A stretch of 64,000 nucleotides of DNA, taken from positions 124,001 through 188,000 of the forward strand of contig NZ_SJRX01000001.1 of assembly GCF_004352845.1 (NCBI RefSeq). The letters are read 5' to 3'. Within the stretch, counting starts at the first letter, position 1. Each line of letters opens with the position of its first letter. A program made the translations under genes and the position numbers. Shown here one piece after another: positions 189-22,736 of the stretch. This DNA is from Luteimonas terricola. GTDB lineage: Bacteria > Pseudomonadota > Gammaproteobacteria > Xanthomonadales > Xanthomonadaceae. The notes below the pieces were generated by a model. That model searched no databases. It was not told the DNA's origin and saw nothing but the letters and a program-made list of their open reading frames with translations.

Positions 189-812
189 ATGAGCGAGGGG
201 AAGACGCGCATGAGAGCCGGAACTTCAATTGCCACGTGCACGGTGGCGCTGATCGCGCTGGGCGCGGCGTCCTGCGCAATTACCAGCGGACATCACACTG
301 GCCCGAACGGCCAGCCGGTCTATTTCATCGACGGGATGAGCGCGGGCACCGCGTACAAGAAGGCGCAGAAGTTGTGCCCCGGGGGCTACAACCTGATAGG
401 AAACCCGCGACAGTCGTCGCCGGTCGACTACGTCATGACCATCGAATGCAAGGGGCCGGCGGTGGGCGGCAGCGGTGGCGTCGGGCACACGTTGGATCCG
501 GCGACGCGCGGCGGATGGTGGGCAGATCACGCGCCCGAGCAGGCTGACGTTCCCGACTACGCCAGCTGGGAAAAGTTCGACGCGCGGAAGTTCGCGCGCA
601 TGGAGCCGCGCCGGACGACGCGCGTGCAGATGGCCGAGATGCTGGGGCAACCCACAAATTCGATGGACCTGCCCGGCGACTTCGGTTCGGACCAGTGGAT
701 CGAGGGGTCCCAGGCGCTCGGCGTCATCTACAAGCGGGGCGTGCTCCAGGAGGTCAACCTCCTGTCCAGCATTGACCTGAGCATCGCAGAGCGGCAGCGG
801 CTCGGCCTCTAA
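189..812 (+). CDS. putative prophage lipoprotein (possible moron)
   Basis: The 207-residue product opens with a signal sequence whose hydrophobic core (about residues 12-28) ends in a plausible lipobox AASC, so it is probably an exported lipoprotein. Residues 45-90 contain a GMSAGTAYKKAQKLCPGGY stretch and a second Cys (ECKGP), a pattern I associate with small host-like lipoproteins of Xanthomonads. The C-terminal half is polar and unassigned. ATG 189 is preceded by a GGGGAG ribosome site; an in-frame ATG at 210 would also leave an intact signal peptide. Its position before the lysis block and outside the packaging genes suggests a lysogeny-expressed accessory gene, for example in superinfection exclusion, but this is inference. 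Confidence 0.6.
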   Translation: MSEGKTRMRAGTSIATCTVALIALGAASCAITSGHHTGPNGQPVYFIDGMSAGTAYKKAQKLCPGGYNLIGNPRQSSPVDYVMTIECKGPAVGGSGGVGHTLDPATRGGWWADHAPEQADVPDYASWEKFDARKFARMEPRRTTRVQMAEMLGQPTNSMDLPGDFGSDQWIEGSQALGVIYKRGVLQEVNLLSSIDLSIAERQRLGL

Positions 813-826
813 AACGAGGGTTGACG

Positions 827-1120
827 ATGGACCGAGTGCAGCGCCTCGCCGCTTCTATGGTGAACCTGGGCGAGTCCGCATCCGAGACGCACGCAGGGTT
901 GCACGTGCTGGAGCTCGCCGTGGCCGCGCTGATTCGTTCGCATCCGGCCCCGGAGAGGTTTGCCGAGGAGTTCCGGCGATACTGGCTGCAGTCCGGGTCG
1001 CTTCATTCAGACGACGAAGTCGATCCCGTAGCCGCCGCCCGGATTGACTCAGCGCTGTCGATTCTCGAAGAGGCGTGTCCGGTGCCACTACGCGTTCGCC
1101 CACCTCGGACTGGCGGCTAG
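827..1120 (+). CDS. small acidic phage protein of unknown function
   Basis: A 97-residue protein. ATG 827 is chosen because GAGGG at 816-820 gives a good ribosome site; a TTG two codons upstream (821) is in frame but too close to it. The sequence is mainly helical, with two segments (about 5-30 and 40-80), and is rich in Glu and Asp. I recognise no domain. It lies 14 bases after the lipoprotein stop and converges on the Acb2-like gene, with only 14 bases between their stop codons, so it is probably the last gene of the upstream plus-strand unit. Confidence 0.55.
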   Translation: MDRVQRLAASMVNLGESASETHAGLHVLELAVAALIRSHPAPERFAEEFRRYWLQSGSLHSDDEVDPVAAARIDSALSILEEACPVPLRVRPPRTGG

Positions 1121-1134
1121 CCACTCCAGCGGCC

Positions 1135-1359
1135 CTAGAACGTCGTCGGCTGCGCAATCGCCCGCACCGCCCACATGAAGCCCGTCTGCAGCTCGGTGCG
1201 GGCAATCGCGACGGCGCGCTGGTCCACGCCCTGAAGCTTGCCCAACGTCTCGATCAGGTCGCCGACCATCGCGGCCTGCGTCTTGATGGCGTTCATCGCA
1301 TCGATCTCCCACTGCGCGAGCTCGCGGTAGCCGCTGATCTTGCGGTGCTGGTTTTCCAT
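1135..1359 (-). CDS. Acb2/Tad1-like cyclic-oligonucleotide sponge (anti-CBASS/anti-Thoeris candidate)
   Basis: A 74-residue helical protein on the strand opposite to all neighbouring phage genes. It has the pattern I know from Acb2/Tad1 hairpin-domain proteins: N-terminal HRKISGYRELAQWEIDAMN, a helix with IK at 25-26, then DQR.VAIARTELQTGFM and a C-terminal AIAQPTTF. Acb2 binds and sequesters CBASS signal nucleotides; from memory, Tyr11 and Lys26 hold cyclic dinucleotides in Acb2, and both residues are at those positions here. An Arg at 66 may match the residue used for cyclic trinucleotides. ATG 1359 is preceded by AAAGG on the minus strand. The same frame stays open upstream to 1596, but that part has no family character. 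The sequestering activity itself is inferred. Confidence 0.8.
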   Translation of the reverse strand: MENQHRKISGYRELAQWEIDAMNAIKTQAAMVGDLIETLGKLQGVDQRAVAIARTELQTGFMWAVRAIAQPTTF

Positions 1360-1577: not shown

Positions 1578-2153
1578 ATGGCCACCGTCGAACCACCCGG
1601 AAGCGGCAAAACCGGGCCCATCGTGGGCGGCGTGGCCTTTGGTTCCGCGATGCTGCTGGCCTTCCTGATGCTGTGGGAGTCGAGCAGCAAGCCCATCCTG
1701 ATCGTGTACCCCGACCGGCTGGCTGGCGGGTTGCCGACCGTCTGCGACGGCCTGACCCGGCATGTCACCACCACGCCGATCGTCGTCGGCGAACGCTGGA
1801 CGCTGGAGAAATGTGAGCGCGAGACCGCCGCCGCAGTGGTGCGCGTGCAGGTGCGCTTGATCCGGTGCTTCAAGGACACGCCGCCGCAGTCGGTGTTCGA
1901 CGCCGCAAGCTCGCACGCCTGGAACCTGGGCGCGGGCGCCACCTGCGGCAGCGCCGCGATGAAGGCCTGGAACCGGGGCGACTATCCACTGGGTTGCCGG
2001 CGGCTCTACGTGTCCGACGGCGGCCGCATGGTCTGGAGCTACGTCAAGACGGGCAAGCGCCTGGCCAATGGCCAGCCGGAATACCGCTTCGTGCGCGGGC
2101 TGCAGAACCGCCGCCGCGCCGAGGACAAGCTCTGCATGAGGGACGTGGCATGA
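1578..2153 (+). CDS. phage endolysin (lysozyme, R21-like), probably signal-anchor type
   Basis: A 191-residue lysozyme that would cut host peptidoglycan at the end of infection. Residues 15-35 (IVGGVAFGSAMLLAFLMLW) form one N-terminal membrane segment, consistent with a signal-anchor-release endolysin. The next part, LPTVCDGLTRHV, carries the C-D/Y-G-x-T core typical of phage lysozymes; the expected catalytic Glu is probably the one just after the membrane segment (LWES), but the spacing is longer than in P21 R. ATG 1578 has CAGGAG 6 bases upstream; longer in-frame starts lack one. It is the first gene of the lysis cassette, overlaps Rz by ATGA, and follows repeat copy A. Confidence 0.8.
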   Translation: MATVEPPGSGKTGPIVGGVAFGSAMLLAFLMLWESSSKPILIVYPDRLAGGLPTVCDGLTRHVTTTPIVVGERWTLEKCERETAAAVVRVQVRLIRCFKDTPPQSVFDAASSHAWNLGAGATCGSAAMKAWNRGDYPLGCRRLYVSDGGRMVWSYVKTGKRLANGQPEYRFVRGLQNRRRAEDKLCMRDVA

Positions 2154-2641
2154 CGCGCATCCTCGCCGCCGTCGCGCTGCTGCTGTTGCTCGCCCTGGGC
2201 TGGTCCATGTGGCGGATGGAAGCGCACAAGGGCACCGCCACCGCGGCCACCGACCGTGCCGAGACCGCCGAAGGCGAAGCCAAGCAGCTGCGCGACACCC
2301 TGGCCGACGAGCGCGAAGAAGCCCAGGGAATGACCAGGATCGGAGACGACCATGAAGATGACCGCGCCGCTGCGCAAGACCTGCCTGCTGCTGTTGTCGC
2401 TGGCATTGACGACGGCACTCTCAAGCTGCGCCGGCAATGGGCAGCGTGTGAGACCAATCGTCTGTCCGAGTCCGCCGCTGGCGCCTTCGAACGTGATGCG
2501 CTCGCCCAACTACGAAAGCAGGATCAGGGCGATCTTGTTCGAGTCGGGCGCGACGCCGACGACCAGCTCCGGGCATGCCAGGCCGTGATCCGCAGGTACG
2601 AGTCCGCATTTCTCACCACCCGCGACGGGGCCGCACGATGA
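2150..2641 (+). CDS. inner-membrane spanin subunit, Rz-like
   Basis: A 163-residue protein with a single N-terminal membrane helix (residues 4-18, leucine-rich) followed by a long charged helical region with heptad-like spacing, the normal build of an i-spanin. It would pair with Rz1 across the periplasm and fuse inner and outer membranes after wall digestion. The start ATG overlaps the endolysin stop (ATGA). A complete Rz1 reading frame is nested inside it in the +1 relative frame, which is diagnostic for the Rz/Rz1 arrangement. Sequence identity of spanins is low between phages, so the call rests on architecture. Confidence 0.85.
   Translation: MTRILAAVALLLLLALGWSMWRMEAHKGTATAATDRAETAEGEAKQLRDTLADEREEAQGMTRIGDDHEDDRAAAQDLPAAVVAGIDDGTLKLRRQWAACETNRLSESAAGAFERDALAQLRKQDQGDLVRVGRDADDQLRACQAVIRRYESAFLTTRDGAAR
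2352..2588 (+). CDS. outer-membrane spanin lipoprotein, Rz1-like, nested in Rz
   Basis: A 78-residue frame lying wholly within Rz in another frame. It has its own ribosome site (GGAGA, 2342-2346) and a lipoprotein signal: basic MKMTAPLRK, a leucine-rich core, then the lipobox LSSC at Cys26. The mature part is short and proline-containing (CPSPPLAP), as is usual for o-spanins. It would be anchored in the outer membrane and bind the periplasmic end of Rz. The lipobox, the ribosome site and the nested position together make this a real gene rather than a chance frame. Confidence 0.85.
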   Translation: MKMTAPLRKTCLLLLSLALTTALSSCAGNGQRVRPIVCPSPPLAPSNVMRSPNYESRIRAILFESGATPTTSSGHARP

Positions 2642-2970
2642 TCCTTCAGGTTGAACCCGTACATCTCTTCTGGTTCGCGATCATCGGACTCTCGCTCCTG
2701 GGCGCGGCCGCGGCGGTCGGCCGCTGGCTGATCTCGCAGGCGCAGCAGAAGACCGACGCGCAGGTGACCAGGCTTCTGGATGACAGCCGGCAGTGGGAGC
2801 GGGTGGAGATGTCGCTCATGGAGCTGCGAATCGAGCTCCCGGAGCGCTACGTGCGGCGCGAGGACTACATCCGCGGCCAGACGGTGGTCGAAAGCAAGAT
2901 CGACCGTGTGTTCGAGCGGCTGGAGAACCTGCGCCTACAGGGAGCACTCAACGGGGGGGAATTGGAATGA
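2638..2970 (+). CDS. Mu gp25-like membrane protein (DUF2730 type)
   Basis: A 110-residue protein with one N-terminal membrane helix (residues 10-31, HLFWFAIIGLSLLGAAAAVG) followed by a charged coiled-coil region containing LMELRIELPERYVRREDYI. This build and this position, between lysis genes and gp26/gp27 homologues, match Mu gp25 and other DUF2730 proteins, whose function is unknown. ATG overlaps the Rz stop (ATGA), and its own stop overlaps the next start, so it belongs to one translationally coupled late operon. Confidence 0.75.
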   Translation: MILQVEPVHLFWFAIIGLSLLGAAAAVGRWLISQAQQKTDAQVTRLLDDSRQWERVEMSLMELRIELPERYVRREDYIRGQTVVESKIDRVFERLENLRLQGALNGGELE

Positions 2971-3272
2971 TCGACATGGAAAAGGTGCGGCGCGAATCGA
3001 TGCGTTGGATCCTGCTCAACGCGCTGAACCACGCACGGCCCGCGGGAACGTATGAAAGCGTGCTGCTGCCCACCCTGCAGACCATGTATCCCGATGCGAC
3101 GGCGCTGGAGATCCGCCGCCATCTGGATTACTTGAGCGACCGGGCGCTGGTGAAGGTGCACAAGGAGCCGCATGGCCCCTGGCGGGCGCTGCTGACCCGC
3201 CACGGCATCGACATCGTCGAGTACACCATCGACTGCGAGCCGGGCATCGCCCGGCCCGAGAAGTACTGGTAG
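2967..3272 (+). CDS. Mu gp26-like phage protein (VpaChn25_0724 family)
   Basis: A 101-residue protein that reads as a small winged-helix domain: MRWILLNALNHARP, ESVLLPTLQTMYPDATALEIRR, then LDYLSDRALVKV and a wing-like strand before LTRHGIDIVEYT. These are the conserved blocks I associate with Mu gp26-family proteins, always found between gp25 and the small terminase. The role in phage growth is unknown; a DNA-binding or packaging accessory role is possible. ATG 2967 overlaps the preceding stop; a second in-frame ATG three codons later cannot be excluded. Confidence 0.75.
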   Translation: MIDMEKVRRESMRWILLNALNHARPAGTYESVLLPTLQTMYPDATALEIRRHLDYLSDRALVKVHKEPHGPWRALLTRHGIDIVEYTIDCEPGIARPEKYW

Positions 3273-3280
3273 GCCGCGGC

Positions 3281-3832
3281 GTGCCTGCCCCGAGCAAGAT
3301 CGACATGATGGATGAAGCCACCCGCGCCGAGCTCGACCGCCGCATCGTTGCCAACGGCTTCGGCGGCTACGTCGCGCTGTCCGAATGGCTTGTCGAACAG
3401 GGTTACGAGATCGGCAAGAGCACCGTCGGCGAGCGCGGCCGCCGGCTCAAGCAGAAGATGGGGCAGATCCGGGCCAGCACGGAGGCGGCGAAGATGATCG
3501 CCGCCGCTGCGCCCGACGACGCCGACGAGCGCAGCAACGCCATCATCAGCCTGGTGCAGACCGAGATCTTCGAAAGCCTGCTGCAGCTCGAAGCCGCGAC
3601 CGACGAAGAGGACCCCGCCAAGCGCGTGGAGATCCTGGGCAAGGCGGCCAAGAACATCGCCACCCTGACCCGGGCCAGCGTGACCCGGAACAAGTGGGCG
3701 ATGGACGTGCGCGCGCGGGTGGACGCCGCCACCGCCGCGGTCGACAAGATCCAGAAGAGCGGCGGGCTGTCGGCTGCCGGCGCGCGCGAGCTACGGGAGA
3801 AGATCCTGGGCATCAACAGGGCCACGGTGTGA
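3281..3832 (+). CDS. terminase small subunit-like protein (Mu gp27, DUF3486)
   Basis: A 183-residue helical protein with N-terminal PAPSKIDMMDEATRAELDRR and a GYVALSEWLVEQGYEIGKSTVGE block that looks like a helix-turn-helix for DNA recognition, followed by long amphipathic helices. This is the DUF3486/Mu gp27 layout, considered the small subunit that recognises phage ends for headful packaging. A GTG start at 3281 preserves the conserved MPAPSKID opening; ATG 3305 would remove it. Its stop overlaps the GTG of the large subunit. Confidence 0.8.
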   Translation: MPAPSKIDMMDEATRAELDRRIVANGFGGYVALSEWLVEQGYEIGKSTVGERGRRLKQKMGQIRASTEAAKMIAAAAPDDADERSNAIISLVQTEIFESLLQLEAATDEEDPAKRVEILGKAAKNIATLTRASVTRNKWAMDVRARVDAATAAVDKIQKSGGLSAAGARELREKILGINRATV

Positions 3833-5418
3833 ATGACCAGGCGCGCACCCTTGTTCCCGACACCGCCGGCGCCGAAGTGCCGGCGGCGCTGCTGCCGTAC
3901 CAGCAGCGCTGGATCGCCGACCCGGCCAACCTGAAGGTCTGCGAGAAGGGCCGCCGCACCGGCCTGACCTGGGCCGAAGCCGCCGATGACGTTCTGATCG
4001 CCGCGAGCTCCAAGGAGGCCGGGGGCCAGAACGTCTATTACCTGGGCACCGACAAGGAAATGACCGAGGAGTTCATCGGTGCCTGCGCCATGTGGAGCAA
4101 GGCCTTCAACCATGCCGCGGGCGCGATCGAGGACGGCTTCTGGGACGAGGACGAAGACGACAAGCACATCAAGACCTACACCATCCGGTTTCCGGCCAGC
4201 GGCCACAAGATCACGGCGCTGGCCAGCCGGCCACGGAAGCTGCGCGGCCGCCAGGGCGTGCTGGTGGGCGACGAGGCCGCGTTCGTCGATGACCTGCCCG
4301 AGCTGCTGAAGGCGGCGATGGCGTTCCTGATCTGGGGCGGCAAGGTGCGGATCATCTCGACCCACGACGGGGCCGAAAACGAGTTCAACGGCCTGGTGCA
4401 GGAGATCCGCGCGGGCAAGCGCCGTGGCTCGGTCCACAAGGTGACCTTCCGCGGTGCGGTGGAGGAAGGGCTGTTCGAGCGCATCTGCCTTCGCCTGGGC
4501 AAGCCGTACTCGGAGGAGGCCGAGGCGGAGTTCGTCGAGGAGATCTATGGCACCTACGGCGAGGACGCCGAAGAGGAACTGGATTGCGTGCCGCGCAACA
4601 GCGCGGGCGCCTATCTGTCGCGCCAGCTGGTCGAATCGCGGATGAGCGACGAAACGCCGATCCTGCGCATCGAACGTCCGGAGGGCTGGGAGCTGCTGCC
4701 GGAGCGGATGCGCAGGGCCGACGTCCAGGACTGGCTGGAACAGGAGATCGAGCCGCTGCTGGAGGCGCTGCAGGCGCGTCGACGCGAGATCCGCGGCAGC
4801 CTCTTCGGCTACGACTTCGCGCGCTATGTGGACCTGTCGATCCTGGCACCCCAGATCGAATCGATGGATCTCAACCGCCGGGTGCCGTTCGCGATCGAGA
4901 TGCGCCGCATCCCCTACGACCAGCAGCGCCAGATCCTCTTCTACGTGGCCGACCGGCTGCCCAAGCTGCGCGCAGGCGCGATGGACGCCGTCGGCAACGG
5001 CTCCTGGCTCGCGGAGGTGACCCAGCAGCGCTACGGCGAGCGGATCCACCGCGTGGCCATCACCGAGGGCTTCTACGGCGAGAACTTCCCCAAGCTCAAG
5101 GCCGACCTGCAGGACGGCACGCTGGATGGCCTGCCCAGGCATGGCGACTGGCTCGATGACCTGCGGGCGGTCGAGAACATCAAGGGCGTGCCGCGGATCC
5201 CGGCCAAGCGCACCACCGGACGCGATGGCGGCAAGCGCCACGGCGACGCTGCGGTTGCCCTGGTGCTGGGCACCAGCGTGGCCACGGTCGAATACGTGCC
5301 CATCGAGTTCGAGTCCACCGGCCCGCGCTTCGCGGCCACGGACGCGATCGGCCGCGGTTACGGCGATACCGGCTTCGGCACCGTGCCGGGCGGCAATGAC
5401 TTCGGAGGCTTCGCATGA
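3829..5418 (+). CDS. terminase large subunit (Mu gp28-like ATPase/nuclease)
   Basis: A 529-residue packaging motor. Near the N-terminus YQQRWIAD..NLKVCEKGRRTGLTWAEA is the Mu-type adenine and Walker A region (variant GRRTGLTW rather than GKT/S). GRQGVLVGDEAAFVDD is the Walker B segment with the catalytic acidic pair, and ISTHDGAENEF is motif III. The C-terminal half (FGYDFARYVDLSIL and later acidic residues) should be the RNase H-like nuclease that cuts the filled concatemer-like host DNA. The GTG at 3829 overlaps the small-subunit stop (GTGA), which fixes the start. Confidence 0.92.
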   Translation: MNDQARTLVPDTAGAEVPAALLPYQQRWIADPANLKVCEKGRRTGLTWAEAADDVLIAASSKEAGGQNVYYLGTDKEMTEEFIGACAMWSKAFNHAAGAIEDGFWDEDEDDKHIKTYTIRFPASGHKITALASRPRKLRGRQGVLVGDEAAFVDDLPELLKAAMAFLIWGGKVRIISTHDGAENEFNGLVQEIRAGKRRGSVHKVTFRGAVEEGLFERICLRLGKPYSEEAEAEFVEEIYGTYGEDAEEELDCVPRNSAGAYLSRQLVESRMSDETPILRIERPEGWELLPERMRRADVQDWLEQEIEPLLEALQARRREIRGSLFGYDFARYVDLSILAPQIESMDLNRRVPFAIEMRRIPYDQQRQILFYVADRLPKLRAGAMDAVGNGSWLAEVTQQRYGERIHRVAITEGFYGENFPKLKADLQDGTLDGLPRHGDWLDDLRAVENIKGVPRIPAKRTTGRDGGKRHGDAAVALVLGTSVATVEYVPIEFESTGPRFAATDAIGRGYGDTGFGTVPGGNDFGGFA

Positions 5419-6959
5419 ACGATACCGCCCGCCCGCAGCTGGACCGCGAGATCGCGACCACCGCCGATGGCATCGACATCACCCGCGGCTACACCGGGCC
5501 GCTGCTCACGCCCTACGACAGCATCCTGCGCAGCCGCGGCGGCAACGACCTGCGGATCTACGAAGAGGTCTACTCCGACCCCGAGGTTAAGAGCACCTTT
5601 GGCCAGCGCCAGGCGGCGGTGACGCAGTGCGAGTGGCAGGTCGACGCCGGCGGCGATCGCCCGATCGACCAGGAGGCCGCGGAGTTCCTGCGCCAGCAGC
5701 TGCAGCGCATCGGCTGGGACAACGTCACCTCCAAGATGCTCAACGGCATCTTCTACGGATACGCGGTCGCCGAGCTGATCTACAAGGTCGACGGCGCACG
5801 CCTGGTGATCGACCAGGTGAAGGTGCGCAACCGCCGCCGCTTCCGGTTCGCAAAGGACGCCGGCCTGCGGCTGCTGACGATGGACCAGATGTTCGAAGGC
5901 ATCCCGGCCGAGGCGCCGTATTTCTGGCACTTCTGCACCGGCGCCGACCACGACGACGAGCCCTATGGCCTGGGCCTGGCGCACTGGCTGTACTGGCCTG
6001 TGCTGTTCAAGCGCAACGGGCTCAAGTTCTGGCTGATCTTCCTGGAGAAGTTCGGCATGCCCACGGCCGTGGGCAAATACGACACCACCGCCACCGCTCC
6101 CGAGCGCTCGCGGCTGCTGCAGGCCGCGCGGGCGCTGCAGACCGACAGCGGCATCATCATGCCCAAGGAGATGGAGCTCGAGCTGATCGAGGCCGGGCGC
6201 AACGGCACGGCCGACTACCAGGCGCTGCACGATGCGATGAACGCGACCATCCAGAAGGTGATCCTTGGGCAGACGGCCAGCACCCAGGGCACCGCCGGCC
6301 GCCTGGGCAACGATGACCTGCAGGCGGACGTGCGCGACGACATCATCAAGGCCGACGCGGACTTGATCTGCGAGTCATTCAACCTCGGCCCCGTGCGCTG
6401 GCTGATGGAATGGAATTTCCCCGGCGCCGCCCTGCCGCGCGTATTCCGCGTGACCGAAGAGCCCGAGGACCTGTCCGCGCGCGCCGAGCGCGACAAGAAG
6501 ATCCTCGACCTCGGCTACAAGCCAAGCCTGGCCTACGTGCACGAGGTCTACGGCACCGAGTGGGAGCCCAAGGACCCGGCGCCGGTGGATCCGCGCGAGC
6601 CGACCGCGATCGATGGCGCCGAGTTCGCCCAGCCCGCGCGCGCCGTGCTCGAGCTGCTGCAGCGCGGCCACCCGCGGGCGCGTGGCGCGGCCTTTGCCGA
6701 GGCGGCTGCGGCGCCCGACGTCCCGGCGCGCATGGCGCCGCGGCTGGAGCGCGACATCAAGCCGACCGGCGACGCCTGGCTTGTGCAGGTCCGCGAGCTC
6801 GTGGAGAGTTCAGGGTCCCTGCAGGAGCTCAGCGACGCACTGATGGCATTGCAGCCGGACATGGACCTTGACGCCTACTCCGCGGCGATGGCCGACGCCC
6901 TGACTGCGGCGACGCTTGCCGGCCGCTACGACGTGCTCCAGGAAGCCGGCGGGGCCTGA
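5415..6959 (+). CDS. portal protein (Mu gp29-like, DUF935)
   Basis: A 514-residue portal. It has the DUF935 signature order: ITRGYTGPLL....DSILRSRGG.DLRIYEEVYSDPEVKSTFGQRQAAV, then WD..TSKMLNGIFYGYAVAELIY, and a central LKFWLIFLEKFGMPTAVGKYD block typical of the family. Portal subunits form the dodecameric ring through which the terminase pumps DNA. The C-terminal 120 residues are Ala/Pro-rich and more variable. ATG overlaps the terminase stop (ATGA). Length is normal for Mu-type portals (about 500). Confidence 0.92.
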   Translation: MNDTARPQLDREIATTADGIDITRGYTGPLLTPYDSILRSRGGNDLRIYEEVYSDPEVKSTFGQRQAAVTQCEWQVDAGGDRPIDQEAAEFLRQQLQRIGWDNVTSKMLNGIFYGYAVAELIYKVDGARLVIDQVKVRNRRRFRFAKDAGLRLLTMDQMFEGIPAEAPYFWHFCTGADHDDEPYGLGLAHWLYWPVLFKRNGLKFWLIFLEKFGMPTAVGKYDTTATAPERSRLLQAARALQTDSGIIMPKEMELELIEAGRNGTADYQALHDAMNATIQKVILGQTASTQGTAGRLGNDDLQADVRDDIIKADADLICESFNLGPVRWLMEWNFPGAALPRVFRVTEEPEDLSARAERDKKILDLGYKPSLAYVHEVYGTEWEPKDPAPVDPREPTAIDGAEFAQPARAVLELLQRGHPRARGAAFAEAAAAPDVPARMAPRLERDIKPTGDAWLVQVRELVESSGSLQELSDALMALQPDMDLDAYSAAMADALTAATLAGRYDVLQEAGGA

Positions 6960-6962
6960 CCG

Positions 6963-8273
6963 ATGGCCGTCGCCTACGGCTCGCTGCCGTTTTCCCAGCA
7001 GATCGCCTTCTTCCGGTCCAAGCGCAACGTCCTGACCGAGAGCTACCTGGACGTGTGGGGCGCCGAGCACGACCGCGCCTTCATGGTCGCCGGCGCCAAC
7101 CGCGACGACCTGCTCGCCGACCTGCGGGAAGCGGTACGCAAGACGATCGAGGACGGGGCCACGCTGGCCGACTTCCGCCGCGATTTCGATCGCATCGTGG
7201 CCACGCACGGATGGGATTACACCGGCGGGCGCAACTGGCGCACGCGCGTGATCTACGAGACCAACCTGCGGCAGTCCTACAACGCCGGCCGCTGGCAGCA
7301 GCTGCAGCGGCTCAAGCAGGTGCGGCCGTACTGGCGCTACCGGCACAACGACGCGGTCGAACACCCGCGTCCCATCCATGAAAGGTGGGACGGCCAGGTG
7401 TGGCACGCCGATGATCCGATCTGGCACACGCACTTTCCGTCGAACGGCTGGGGCTGCCAGTGCTACGTGGAGGCGCTCAACGCGCGCGACCTGCAGCGCC
7501 TGGGCAAGACCGGCCCGGACACGCCGCCGCCGCTCAACATGCAGGCGGTCACTGTGGGCCAGCGCAGCCCCGGCGGCCCGCGCGTGGTGATGACGCCCGA
7601 AGGCATCGACCCCGGCTTCGGCTACGCGCCCGGCCGCAGTCTCGACGCCGGTCCCGACGGCGGCGGCTGGTCGCCGCCCCGGGGTGTGCCGCCGGTGCCC
7701 ACGCCGCCATCGCTGCGCGGCCCGCTCGAGCGCACCGCGCAGATGGCCCTGGGCAAGACCGAGCGCCTGCCGGCGCTGGCAGCCGCCCGCAGCACGGCGG
7801 CCATGCTGGCGCTACAGCGCGCCGTGCAGGCGATCCAGGCGGGCTATGCCGAGTGGTCCGCCGCGGCGCGCGCCGCGCGTGGCATCGGCGAGGGCCGCTA
7901 CCTGGTGGGCGCCCTGGAGCCGGCGCTGGTCCAGCGGATGGCCACCGCAGGCGCTACGCCGTCGACGGCGGCGATCGCAGTCAGCGCGTCCCGGGTTCCG
8001 GCCGCAGCCGCGGGGCTGCCCGAGCTGACCACCGTGCTGCGCGCGCCGCGCGCGGTGCTGCTCGATGTTGGCGCCCGCACGCTGCACTACGTTGCCGACC
8101 TGCCGCGCGGCAAGCGTGGCCAAGTGGCGATAGCAACGCTGCAGTACCAGGTGGGTGCGCAGGCCGTCGGCAGCGCCAGCACCGTCCAGGCCTTGCAGGT
8201 GGGCGAGCTGGCGGCGCTGCGCGCGGATGTCGCCGCCGGCCGCAAGGTCGTGGTCCAGGGCACGCTCAACTAG
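6963..8273 (+). CDS. Mu F-like minor head protein with a C-terminal extension
   Basis: A 436-residue protein. Residues about 60-190 form the Mu F/SPP1 gp7 minor-head domain: TRVIYETNLRQSYNAGRW, WRYRHNDAVEHPRPIHERWDG, then DDPIWHTHFPSNGWGCQCYV, with the conserved His, Trp and Cys residues. It should sit inside the head near the portal. After an Ala/Pro-rich linker (230-330), the last 100 residues form a separate compact region ending in GRKVVVQGTLN. This C-terminal region recalls nuclease-fold (PBECR-like) domains attached to phage head proteins, but I cannot place catalytic residues. Starts three bases after the portal stop. Confidence 0.88.
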   Translation: MAVAYGSLPFSQQIAFFRSKRNVLTESYLDVWGAEHDRAFMVAGANRDDLLADLREAVRKTIEDGATLADFRRDFDRIVATHGWDYTGGRNWRTRVIYETNLRQSYNAGRWQQLQRLKQVRPYWRYRHNDAVEHPRPIHERWDGQVWHADDPIWHTHFPSNGWGCQCYVEALNARDLQRLGKTGPDTPPPLNMQAVTVGQRSPGGPRVVMTPEGIDPGFGYAPGRSLDAGPDGGGWSPPRGVPPVPTPPSLRGPLERTAQMALGKTERLPALAAARSTAAMLALQRAVQAIQAGYAEWSAAARAARGIGEGRYLVGALEPALVQRMATAGATPSTAAIAVSASRVPAAAAGLPELTTVLRAPRAVLLDVGARTLHYVADLPRGKRGQVAIATLQYQVGAQAVGSASTVQALQVGELAALRADVAAGRKVVVQGTLN

Positions 8274-8916: not shown

Positions 8917-8960
8917 TCGCGCGCGCGAGCGGAAGGGGTTTTGAACGCGGTCCAATGACC
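8917..8960. promoter_or_regulatory. repeat element copy B: candidate late promoter/activator site before the protease/scaffold gene
   Basis: Second copy of the element at 1416-1458. The 20 bases at 8941-8960 differ from copy A (1439-1458) at one position, and the preceding GCGGAAG and CG-repeat are also kept. The copy ends 29 bases before the protease start codon, the position of Mu PI. Conservation of a non-coding element over 43 bases, 7.5 kb apart in the same prophage, argues for function. Like copy A it contains GGTC-CAAT-GACC and lacks an obvious -10. Confidence 0.5.
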
Positions 8961-22237: not shown

Positions 22238-22458
22238 CCCGGATCGTGGCCACTATCGCGCACGCCCGTCGGGCCAGCCTCGCCGGCCAGGGCGTGCTGT
22301 GCGCGCCGGGCCTGCGCGCCTGGGCGCAGCGGCATGGCATCGATCTGCGGAGGGCCGCTTGCGAAGGTTTGCCGGTCGAAGAGCTGGAACGCATCGGCGA
22401 CGCATTCTCCCTGCGCGTGGCGGCGATCGCTCGGGCCGAGCGCGAGGACCAGGAATGA
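22234..22458 (+). CDS. small tail-cluster protein, unknown
   Basis: A 74-residue basic protein (TRIVATIAHARRASLAGQGVLCAPGLRAWAQRHGIDLRR) with a helical C-terminus. Genes of this kind recur between the tip assembly genes in related prophages, but no function is known to me. Start (ATG 22234) overlaps the previous stop and its stop overlaps the next start, so it is a real coupled gene rather than a chance frame. Confidence 0.6.
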   Translation: MTRIVATIAHARRASLAGQGVLCAPGLRAWAQRHGIDLRRAACEGLPVEELERIGDAFSLRVAAIARAEREDQE

Positions 22459-22736
22459 AGCGCCCGGTCCAGGAACTCGTCAGCAGGCTGCTCGTGGCCG
22501 TTGAAGCCCTGTCGCCCGGTCGCCGCAAGGCGGTGTCGCTGCTGACCATGCTGGTGGCCGCTCTCGGGGTTCTGGCCGTCGCTTGGCTCGGCAAGGTCCT
22601 CGCCGCCTGCCTGGGCGCGCTGGTGCTGGCGGCGCAGCTGCTGGTCTACCTCGACACCTTCCACGGCGTGCGCCCGCGCCGGCCCACCTGGCTGCGCCGT
22701 CGCACGCCGATCCGCATCCGACAAAGGCCGCACTGA
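22455..22736 (+). CDS. small membrane protein of the tail cluster
   Basis: A 93-residue protein with two adjacent hydrophobic helices (about residues 27-45 and 48-66), an amphipathic N-terminus and a strongly basic C-terminal tail (GVRPRRPTWLRRRTPIRIRQ). It is coupled by ATGA overlap to the gene before and by ATGA to the large tail-tip gene after. It may be a membrane-sited accessory or a superinfection-related protein; no family recognised. Confidence 0.55.
   Translation: MKRPVQELVSRLLVAVEALSPGRRKAVSLLTMLVAALGVLAVAWLGKVLAACLGALVLAAQLLVYLDTFHGVRPRRPTWLRRRTPIRIRQRPH

Follow-up and report, generated by a model that had tools for sequence, protein, structure and literature searches.

Phage Acb2 proteins sequester cyclic oligonucleotides in a helical oligomer with pockets between its protomers, according to two reviews (PMC10419184, PMC12043709). 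One of these reviews gives 94 aa for the long gp24 form of Acb2 and describes Tad1 as having an N-terminal antiparallel beta-sheet (beta1–beta4) before its hairpin. In T4 Acb2, according to PMC12657218, the Y8A substitution disrupts the binding of cyclic dinucleotides, and Phe82 stacks on the base. Among the papers listed in a literature search of limited scope, none placed Acb2 in a Mu-like prophage or lysogen, or in a transposable phage.

The window analysed here is a stretch of 64,000 nucleotides of Luteimonas terricola, in which a small minus-strand ORF at 1135–1359 had been predicted to encode an Acb2/Tad1-like anti-CBASS protein. The ORF has an ATG start and encodes 74 aa followed by a stop (translation, MENQHRKISGYRELAQWEIDAMNAIKTQAAMVGDLIETLGKLQGVDQRAVAIARTELQTGFMWAVRAIAQPTTF), with AAGGCG upstream, ending 5 bases before the ATG (read by eye). 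The gene and its surroundings comprise the following features:

189–812, plus strand: 207-aa ORF without a family match; by eye it has a lipoprotein-like signal
827–1120, plus strand: 97-aa ORF (from ATG) converging on the acb2-like gene, without a family match
1135–1359, minus strand: acb2-like gene encoding an Acb2/Tad1 hairpin protein of 74 aa (PF24729, 8h2j profile match, AlphaFold2)
1360–1577, no strand: divergent intergenic region between the acb2-like and endolysin genes, with a 19-base repeat at 1440–1458
1578–2153, plus strand: endolysin, first gene of the lysis and head block (PF00959, phrog_7)
3281–6959, plus strand: Gp27-type small terminase, large terminase and Mu portal (PF11985, PF06074; phrog_426, phrog_2, phrog_113)

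A GTG at 1596 opens a longer frame of 153 aa, but this start was rejected because homologues begin at the ATG codon of the 74-aa frame. A chance ORF was ruled out by the Pfam E-value and by conservation among relatives.

Family membership, predicted fold and pocket residues

The 74-aa protein is a correctly recognised, ordinary Acb2 member of a widespread known family and not a new kind of protein. The search against the Acb2/Tad1 Pfam family that had been proposed with the original prediction gave a match to PF24729 (Acb2_Tad1_hairpin) of 71.6 bits (E 6e-20, cut-off 27), with residues 10–70 lying on positions 1–58 of the 58-position profile. Two further Pfam families were both under their own cut-offs, and the two PHROGs families matched are both of unknown function. 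With phmmer, the protein matched Acb2 p26 (8h2j; E 4.7e-13) and T4 Vs.4 (E 0.0029). An alignment was built from the window protein and 60 of 79 viral relatives (61 rows; the 19 omitted by hand were mostly near-duplicates), these 60 being 47–69 % identical to the window protein. As a profile against the PDB, this alignment matched three sequences, 8h2j (E 3.4e-30), 8ixz (E 4.8e-29) and T4 Vs.4 (E 3.1e-9), and 8h2j was aligned from its first to its last residue with a single 19-residue gap after profile position 44. The Pfam match and this end-to-end alignment bear out the predicted family membership. PADLOC at E 0.01 gave no match for the protein, as expected of a counter-defence gene.

Pseudomonas phage Acb2 (p26/gp24; 8h2j, 8h2x, 8ixz) shares with the window protein the end-to-end alignment, Y11, K26, the C-terminal RAIAQP and the hairpin, but 8h2j differs in having 93 aa, with 19 more residues at the inter-helix turn. 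T4 Vs.4/Acb2 (7uq2) shares the hairpin fold and the GY and NAIK motifs; it differs in its low identity (27–30 %), its longer turn and in having Phe82 where the window protein has Ala69. Truncation of the kind seen in the short PaMx41 gp24 was ruled out, as both ends are kept and the missing part is internal.

The AlphaFold2 monomer, modelled from the 61-row alignment (pLDDT 90.9, pTM 0.73), consisted of two long antiparallel helices at 16–40 and 47–69, with the first ten residues less certain (mean pLDDT 60). A short N-terminal helix, part of the published description of Acb2, was absent from the model, as was any beta-strand, and hence anything like the N-terminal sheet of Tad1. The best nine rows of a Foldseek search against the PDB were six Acb2 and then three Vs.4 chains (TMq 0.63–0.73, E 1.2e-4 to 0.029); the rows below them were unrelated proteins with E of at least 1.2. 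The paired-helix hairpin claimed in the original prediction was thus reproduced. In the VIA comparison, Z was 8.5 for 7uq2_D, 8.4 for 8h2j_A and 8.1 for 8h2x_E (rmsd 2.2–2.9 over 69–71 residues); the next-best match after the Acb2 and Vs.4 chains was CsoR at Z 7.1, and a Z near 8 is by itself indecisive for a helical hairpin. Tad1 chains were absent from the Foldseek and VIA matches listed, which by itself proves nothing.

Tyr11 and Lys26, to which the prediction had pointed as residues of the cyclic dinucleotide pocket, match Acb2 position for position. Among the 61 rows (window protein included), Tyr11 was conserved in 61, Lys26 in 59 (Glu in two), Arg48 in 60, Arg66 in 61, Ala69 in 60 and Pro71 in 61, and at none of the 17 nearly invariant columns, K26 among them, does the window protein depart from the family residue. 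K26 aligns with the Lys of NRVK in 8h2j and the Lys of NAIK in 7uq2, and is presumably the pocket lysine of Acb2. In our reading of the alignment, Tyr11 would be the counterpart of T4 Acb2 Y8, the PDB chain being taken as numbered one higher than T4, and Ala69 would occupy the place of the base-stacking Phe82. The residues missing from the window protein lie at the inter-helix turn, whereas the dinucleotide pocket is formed by N- and C-terminal segments remote from it in the sequence; the pocket should therefore be intact.

Compact length and spread of relatives

The original prediction had drawn attention to a protein shorter than an Acb2 of about 94 residues, and that reference length agrees with the 94-aa long gp24 and the 93-aa 8h2j. 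Viral relatives were taken as the best-scoring 80 of 177, one of which was this phage, leaving 79, and redundant loci were kept in the counts. A length of 74 aa was the commonest among these best-scoring relatives (38 of 79), although the query itself has 74 aa, so that the lengths favour 74; 51 of 79 had 72–76 aa and the longest had 93, while the 72 aa of one relative that stops at a contig end (L020) is a minimum. Among 50 relatives in named genomes, all found through one conserved N-terminal pattern, nine had 74 aa and 17 had 74–76 aa, the longest having 117. tblastn at 13 loci gave no match at two, and several matches were too weak for reading length. Much of the length range among relatives arises, in the alignment, from the variable turn between the helices. 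The case for shortness as a special trait is therefore weakened by these query-biased counts: the short length is real but has an ordinary explanation, and the short form is common.

All three PDB sequences matched (two proteins; 93, 92 and 89 aa) have the longer turn, while the form without a long turn (72–76 residues) accounts for the 51 of 79 viral relatives given above. This makes the minimal form convenient for testing the contribution of the turn. If the 74-aa protein simply binds as Acb2 does, it has little significance beyond that comparison.

Of 199 genomes of relatives, 4 had the Acb2 domain in a family search, as did 10 of 398 from across the phylum, and both figures include the host's own genome; among the matches listed in the 199-genome search, no other genome of the genus has the domain. 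Homologues in isolated phages, among them Salmonella phages Munch and SE_PL, Cronobacter phage GAP32 and Leptolyngbya phage Lsp-JY19, matched over all 74 residues with 58–61 % identity; these are different phages, in which the proteins are annotated only as hypothetical.

Some genomes carried two acb2 homologues on different contigs: judged by match length, one Microbulbifer assembly had two of 74 aa and three Xenorhabdus assemblies had pairs of 75–80 aa (locus pairs L097/L099, L104/L110, L112/L113 and L107/L118, one of which is the Microbulbifer pair). In PP003914.1, the site of an acb2 homologue (22426–22638) is annotated as an Rz-like spanin, probably a misannotation.

Proposed function and host defences

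The gene is read here as an Acb2-family phage counter-defence gene whose product is most likely an oligomeric sponge for CBASS cyclic dinucleotides, and perhaps trinucleotides, a reading given a probability of roughly 0.87 from sequence comparison and modelling. An Acb2-type cyclic-nucleotide sponge is supported by homology. From this we infer the oligomeric state, ligand binding, CBASS inhibition and expression time of the product. Like Acb2, which is a hexamer in its solved structures, it would form a small oligomer built entirely of helices, and this would hold cyclic dinucleotides, perhaps cyclic trinucleotides, made by CBASS-type enzymes during infection. The CBASS effector would then stay off and the cell would survive long enough for phage production.

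No match to a SMODS-type CBASS cyclase, or to the AGS_C and Cas10 palm domains, was found in the host genome, so that this host offers no visible direct target. A search of the host with PF21654 was uninformative, since no control genome gave a match. SMODS was above the cut-off in 3 of 52 genomes of the genus. As the phage meets other hosts and some genomes of the genus do carry SMODS, the missing host target is not fatal to the CBASS reading; it weakens the case for function in this lysogen, not in other hosts. The host has two TIR matches, one identified by PADLOC as an Argonaute-associated REase-TIR and the other without a match.

The same Pfam family, PF24729, covers Acb2 and Tad1 hairpins alike, and a Tad1-type anti-Thoeris sponge, with a glycocyclic ADP-ribose rather than cyclic dinucleotides as its main ligand, would belong to it as well. 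However, the protein begins at the conserved MENQHRKI-GY motif and its model has two helices and no strand; sequence searching of the PDB gave only Acb2 and Vs.4 chains, the same that head the fold list, and neither host TIR match drew a Thoeris model of PADLOC. A Tad1-type activity is thus very improbable. Scarcely any weight was given to a decayed or inactive member that has kept the fold and lost signal binding. The lack of a host CBASS cyclase of the types searched (SMODS, AGS_C) would fit such decay, and phages can gain by loss of Acb2 where Panoptes is present, as described in part of PMC12657218. Against it stand the intact frame, the unbroken set of family residues at the nearly invariant columns and the frequency of the same length among relatives.

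An unlikely reading, though one with more in its favour, is a compact sponge with a ligand preference unlike that of solved Acb2, as a result of the loss of the turn and of altered rim residues. The greater length of the matched PDB sequences is consistent with this, as is Ala69 in place of the T4 phenylalanine. Yet 8h2j Acb2 likewise has Ala at that position, the residues in the pocket columns are the usual ones for the family, and one of the two reviews, in describing the dinucleotide pocket of Acb2, does not count the turn as belonging to it. The CBASS sponge of ordinary Acb2 type is preferred.

Separately, one of the host's TIR matches (L089:1006–2853, host contig C12) is an Argonaute-associated protein of 615 aa with the REase-TIR-PNTD make-up (PADLOC E 5e-220), and a short-Argonaute defence system may be present in the host.

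Prophage context, orientation and expression

The surrounding prophage is Mu-like, as had been claimed, on the evidence of MuA- and MuB-like genes, the Mu portal (PF06074) and the PF11985 small terminase, and a clear Acb2 family member is thereby added to a prophage of this type. Eight abutting plus-strand genes occupy 1578–8273, all with family matches and Mu-like, in the order endolysin, Rz-like spanin, two small proteins, small terminase, large terminase, Mu portal and minor head protein; the head maturation protease and then the major head protein follow. Directly left of the window, a minus-strand block (L086) contains MuA-like (rve), MuB-like, HNH and other phage genes. The MuA-like gene matched PF00665 at L086:15623–17410 with E 7e-7 but under the cut-off, and the MuB-like gene matched phrog_296, DNA transposition protein.

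The acb2-like gene is therefore opposite to the lysis and head genes and on the strand of the transposition genes. The suggestion that it is the only minus-strand gene in this part of the phage probably holds to the right, where the eight matched genes fill 1578–8273 and leave little room for another, but not to the left, where the transposition genes share its strand. The minus-strand position is real but has an ordinary explanation.

Loci with at least two of four packaging or head genes of the window by tblastn were counted as Mu-like, giving 29 loci (19 viral, 10 genomic) with this phage excluded. The acb2 gene was on the head-gene strand in 26 of these and on the opposite strand in three (L014, L017 and L022), in a count made without prior removal of redundancy and beside 54 loci that lack matches to the window's neighbour genes and may include more distant Mu-like phages. 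Antisense placement thus recurs in a few related Mu-like phages. The slots also vary, and include one between large terminase and portal (L005, L094) and one upstream of the large terminase (L012). In Lsp-JY19, an isolated phage outside the 29-locus tally, acb2 follows the capsid gene at a distance of two genes and on its strand. The homologue of Pseudomonas phage 5400 comes directly after the endolysin gene.

The acb2 genes of L014, L017 and L022 (IMG/VR) are 59–64 % identical to that of the window and antisense to the packaging genes. In L014 and L017 they are on the MuA/MuB strand, and no MuA was found on the shorter L022. These loci differ in their converging neighbour, which is another protein, of 129 aa. 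L014 is the closest in context, with MuA (59 % identity) and MuB (54 %) both on the acb2 strand and a putative regulator (labelled by eye) that is 59 % identical over 131 aa to one crossing the left edge of the window; a regulator of this type was found next to acb2 only in L014, not at that place in L017 or L022. The facing protein of L014 (6226–6615) has a signal-like N-terminus and is weakly BamE-like (under cut-off). It and the window ORF at 189–812 are different small proteins facing acb2, with a best similarity of 34 % over 29 residues (E 0.015).

It is conceivable, but distinctly doubtful, that an insert-free Acb2 is a minimal functional sponge with its own ligand range that was moved to the early transposition-gene strand in one Mu-like lineage, so that it would already be in the cell when the head proteins, possible triggers of CBASS, are made. 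Separate expression timing for the acb2-like gene, which the original prediction had considered probable, is possible but unproven. A consensus scan of 780–1640 found no sigma-70-like site, and the acb2 promoter is presumed to lie in 1360–1577. Two terminator-like matches in the scan fell within the stretch of the acb2-like gene, on the plus strand.

A 19-base repeat, TGAACG(A/C)GGTCCAATGACC, was observed at 1440–1458 and 8942–8960. It contains the palindrome GGTC-CAAT-GACC, and both copies are preceded by similar GC-rich and TTTTGAACG stretches. The second copy was beyond expectation (0 in 100 shuffles, with the pattern taken from the first site), and in viral_contigs the repeat occurred in only one contig, which is this phage. 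One copy lies before the endolysin gene and the other before the head protease gene, both being sites of late promoters in phage Mu, and the repeats are candidate activator-bound late promoters.
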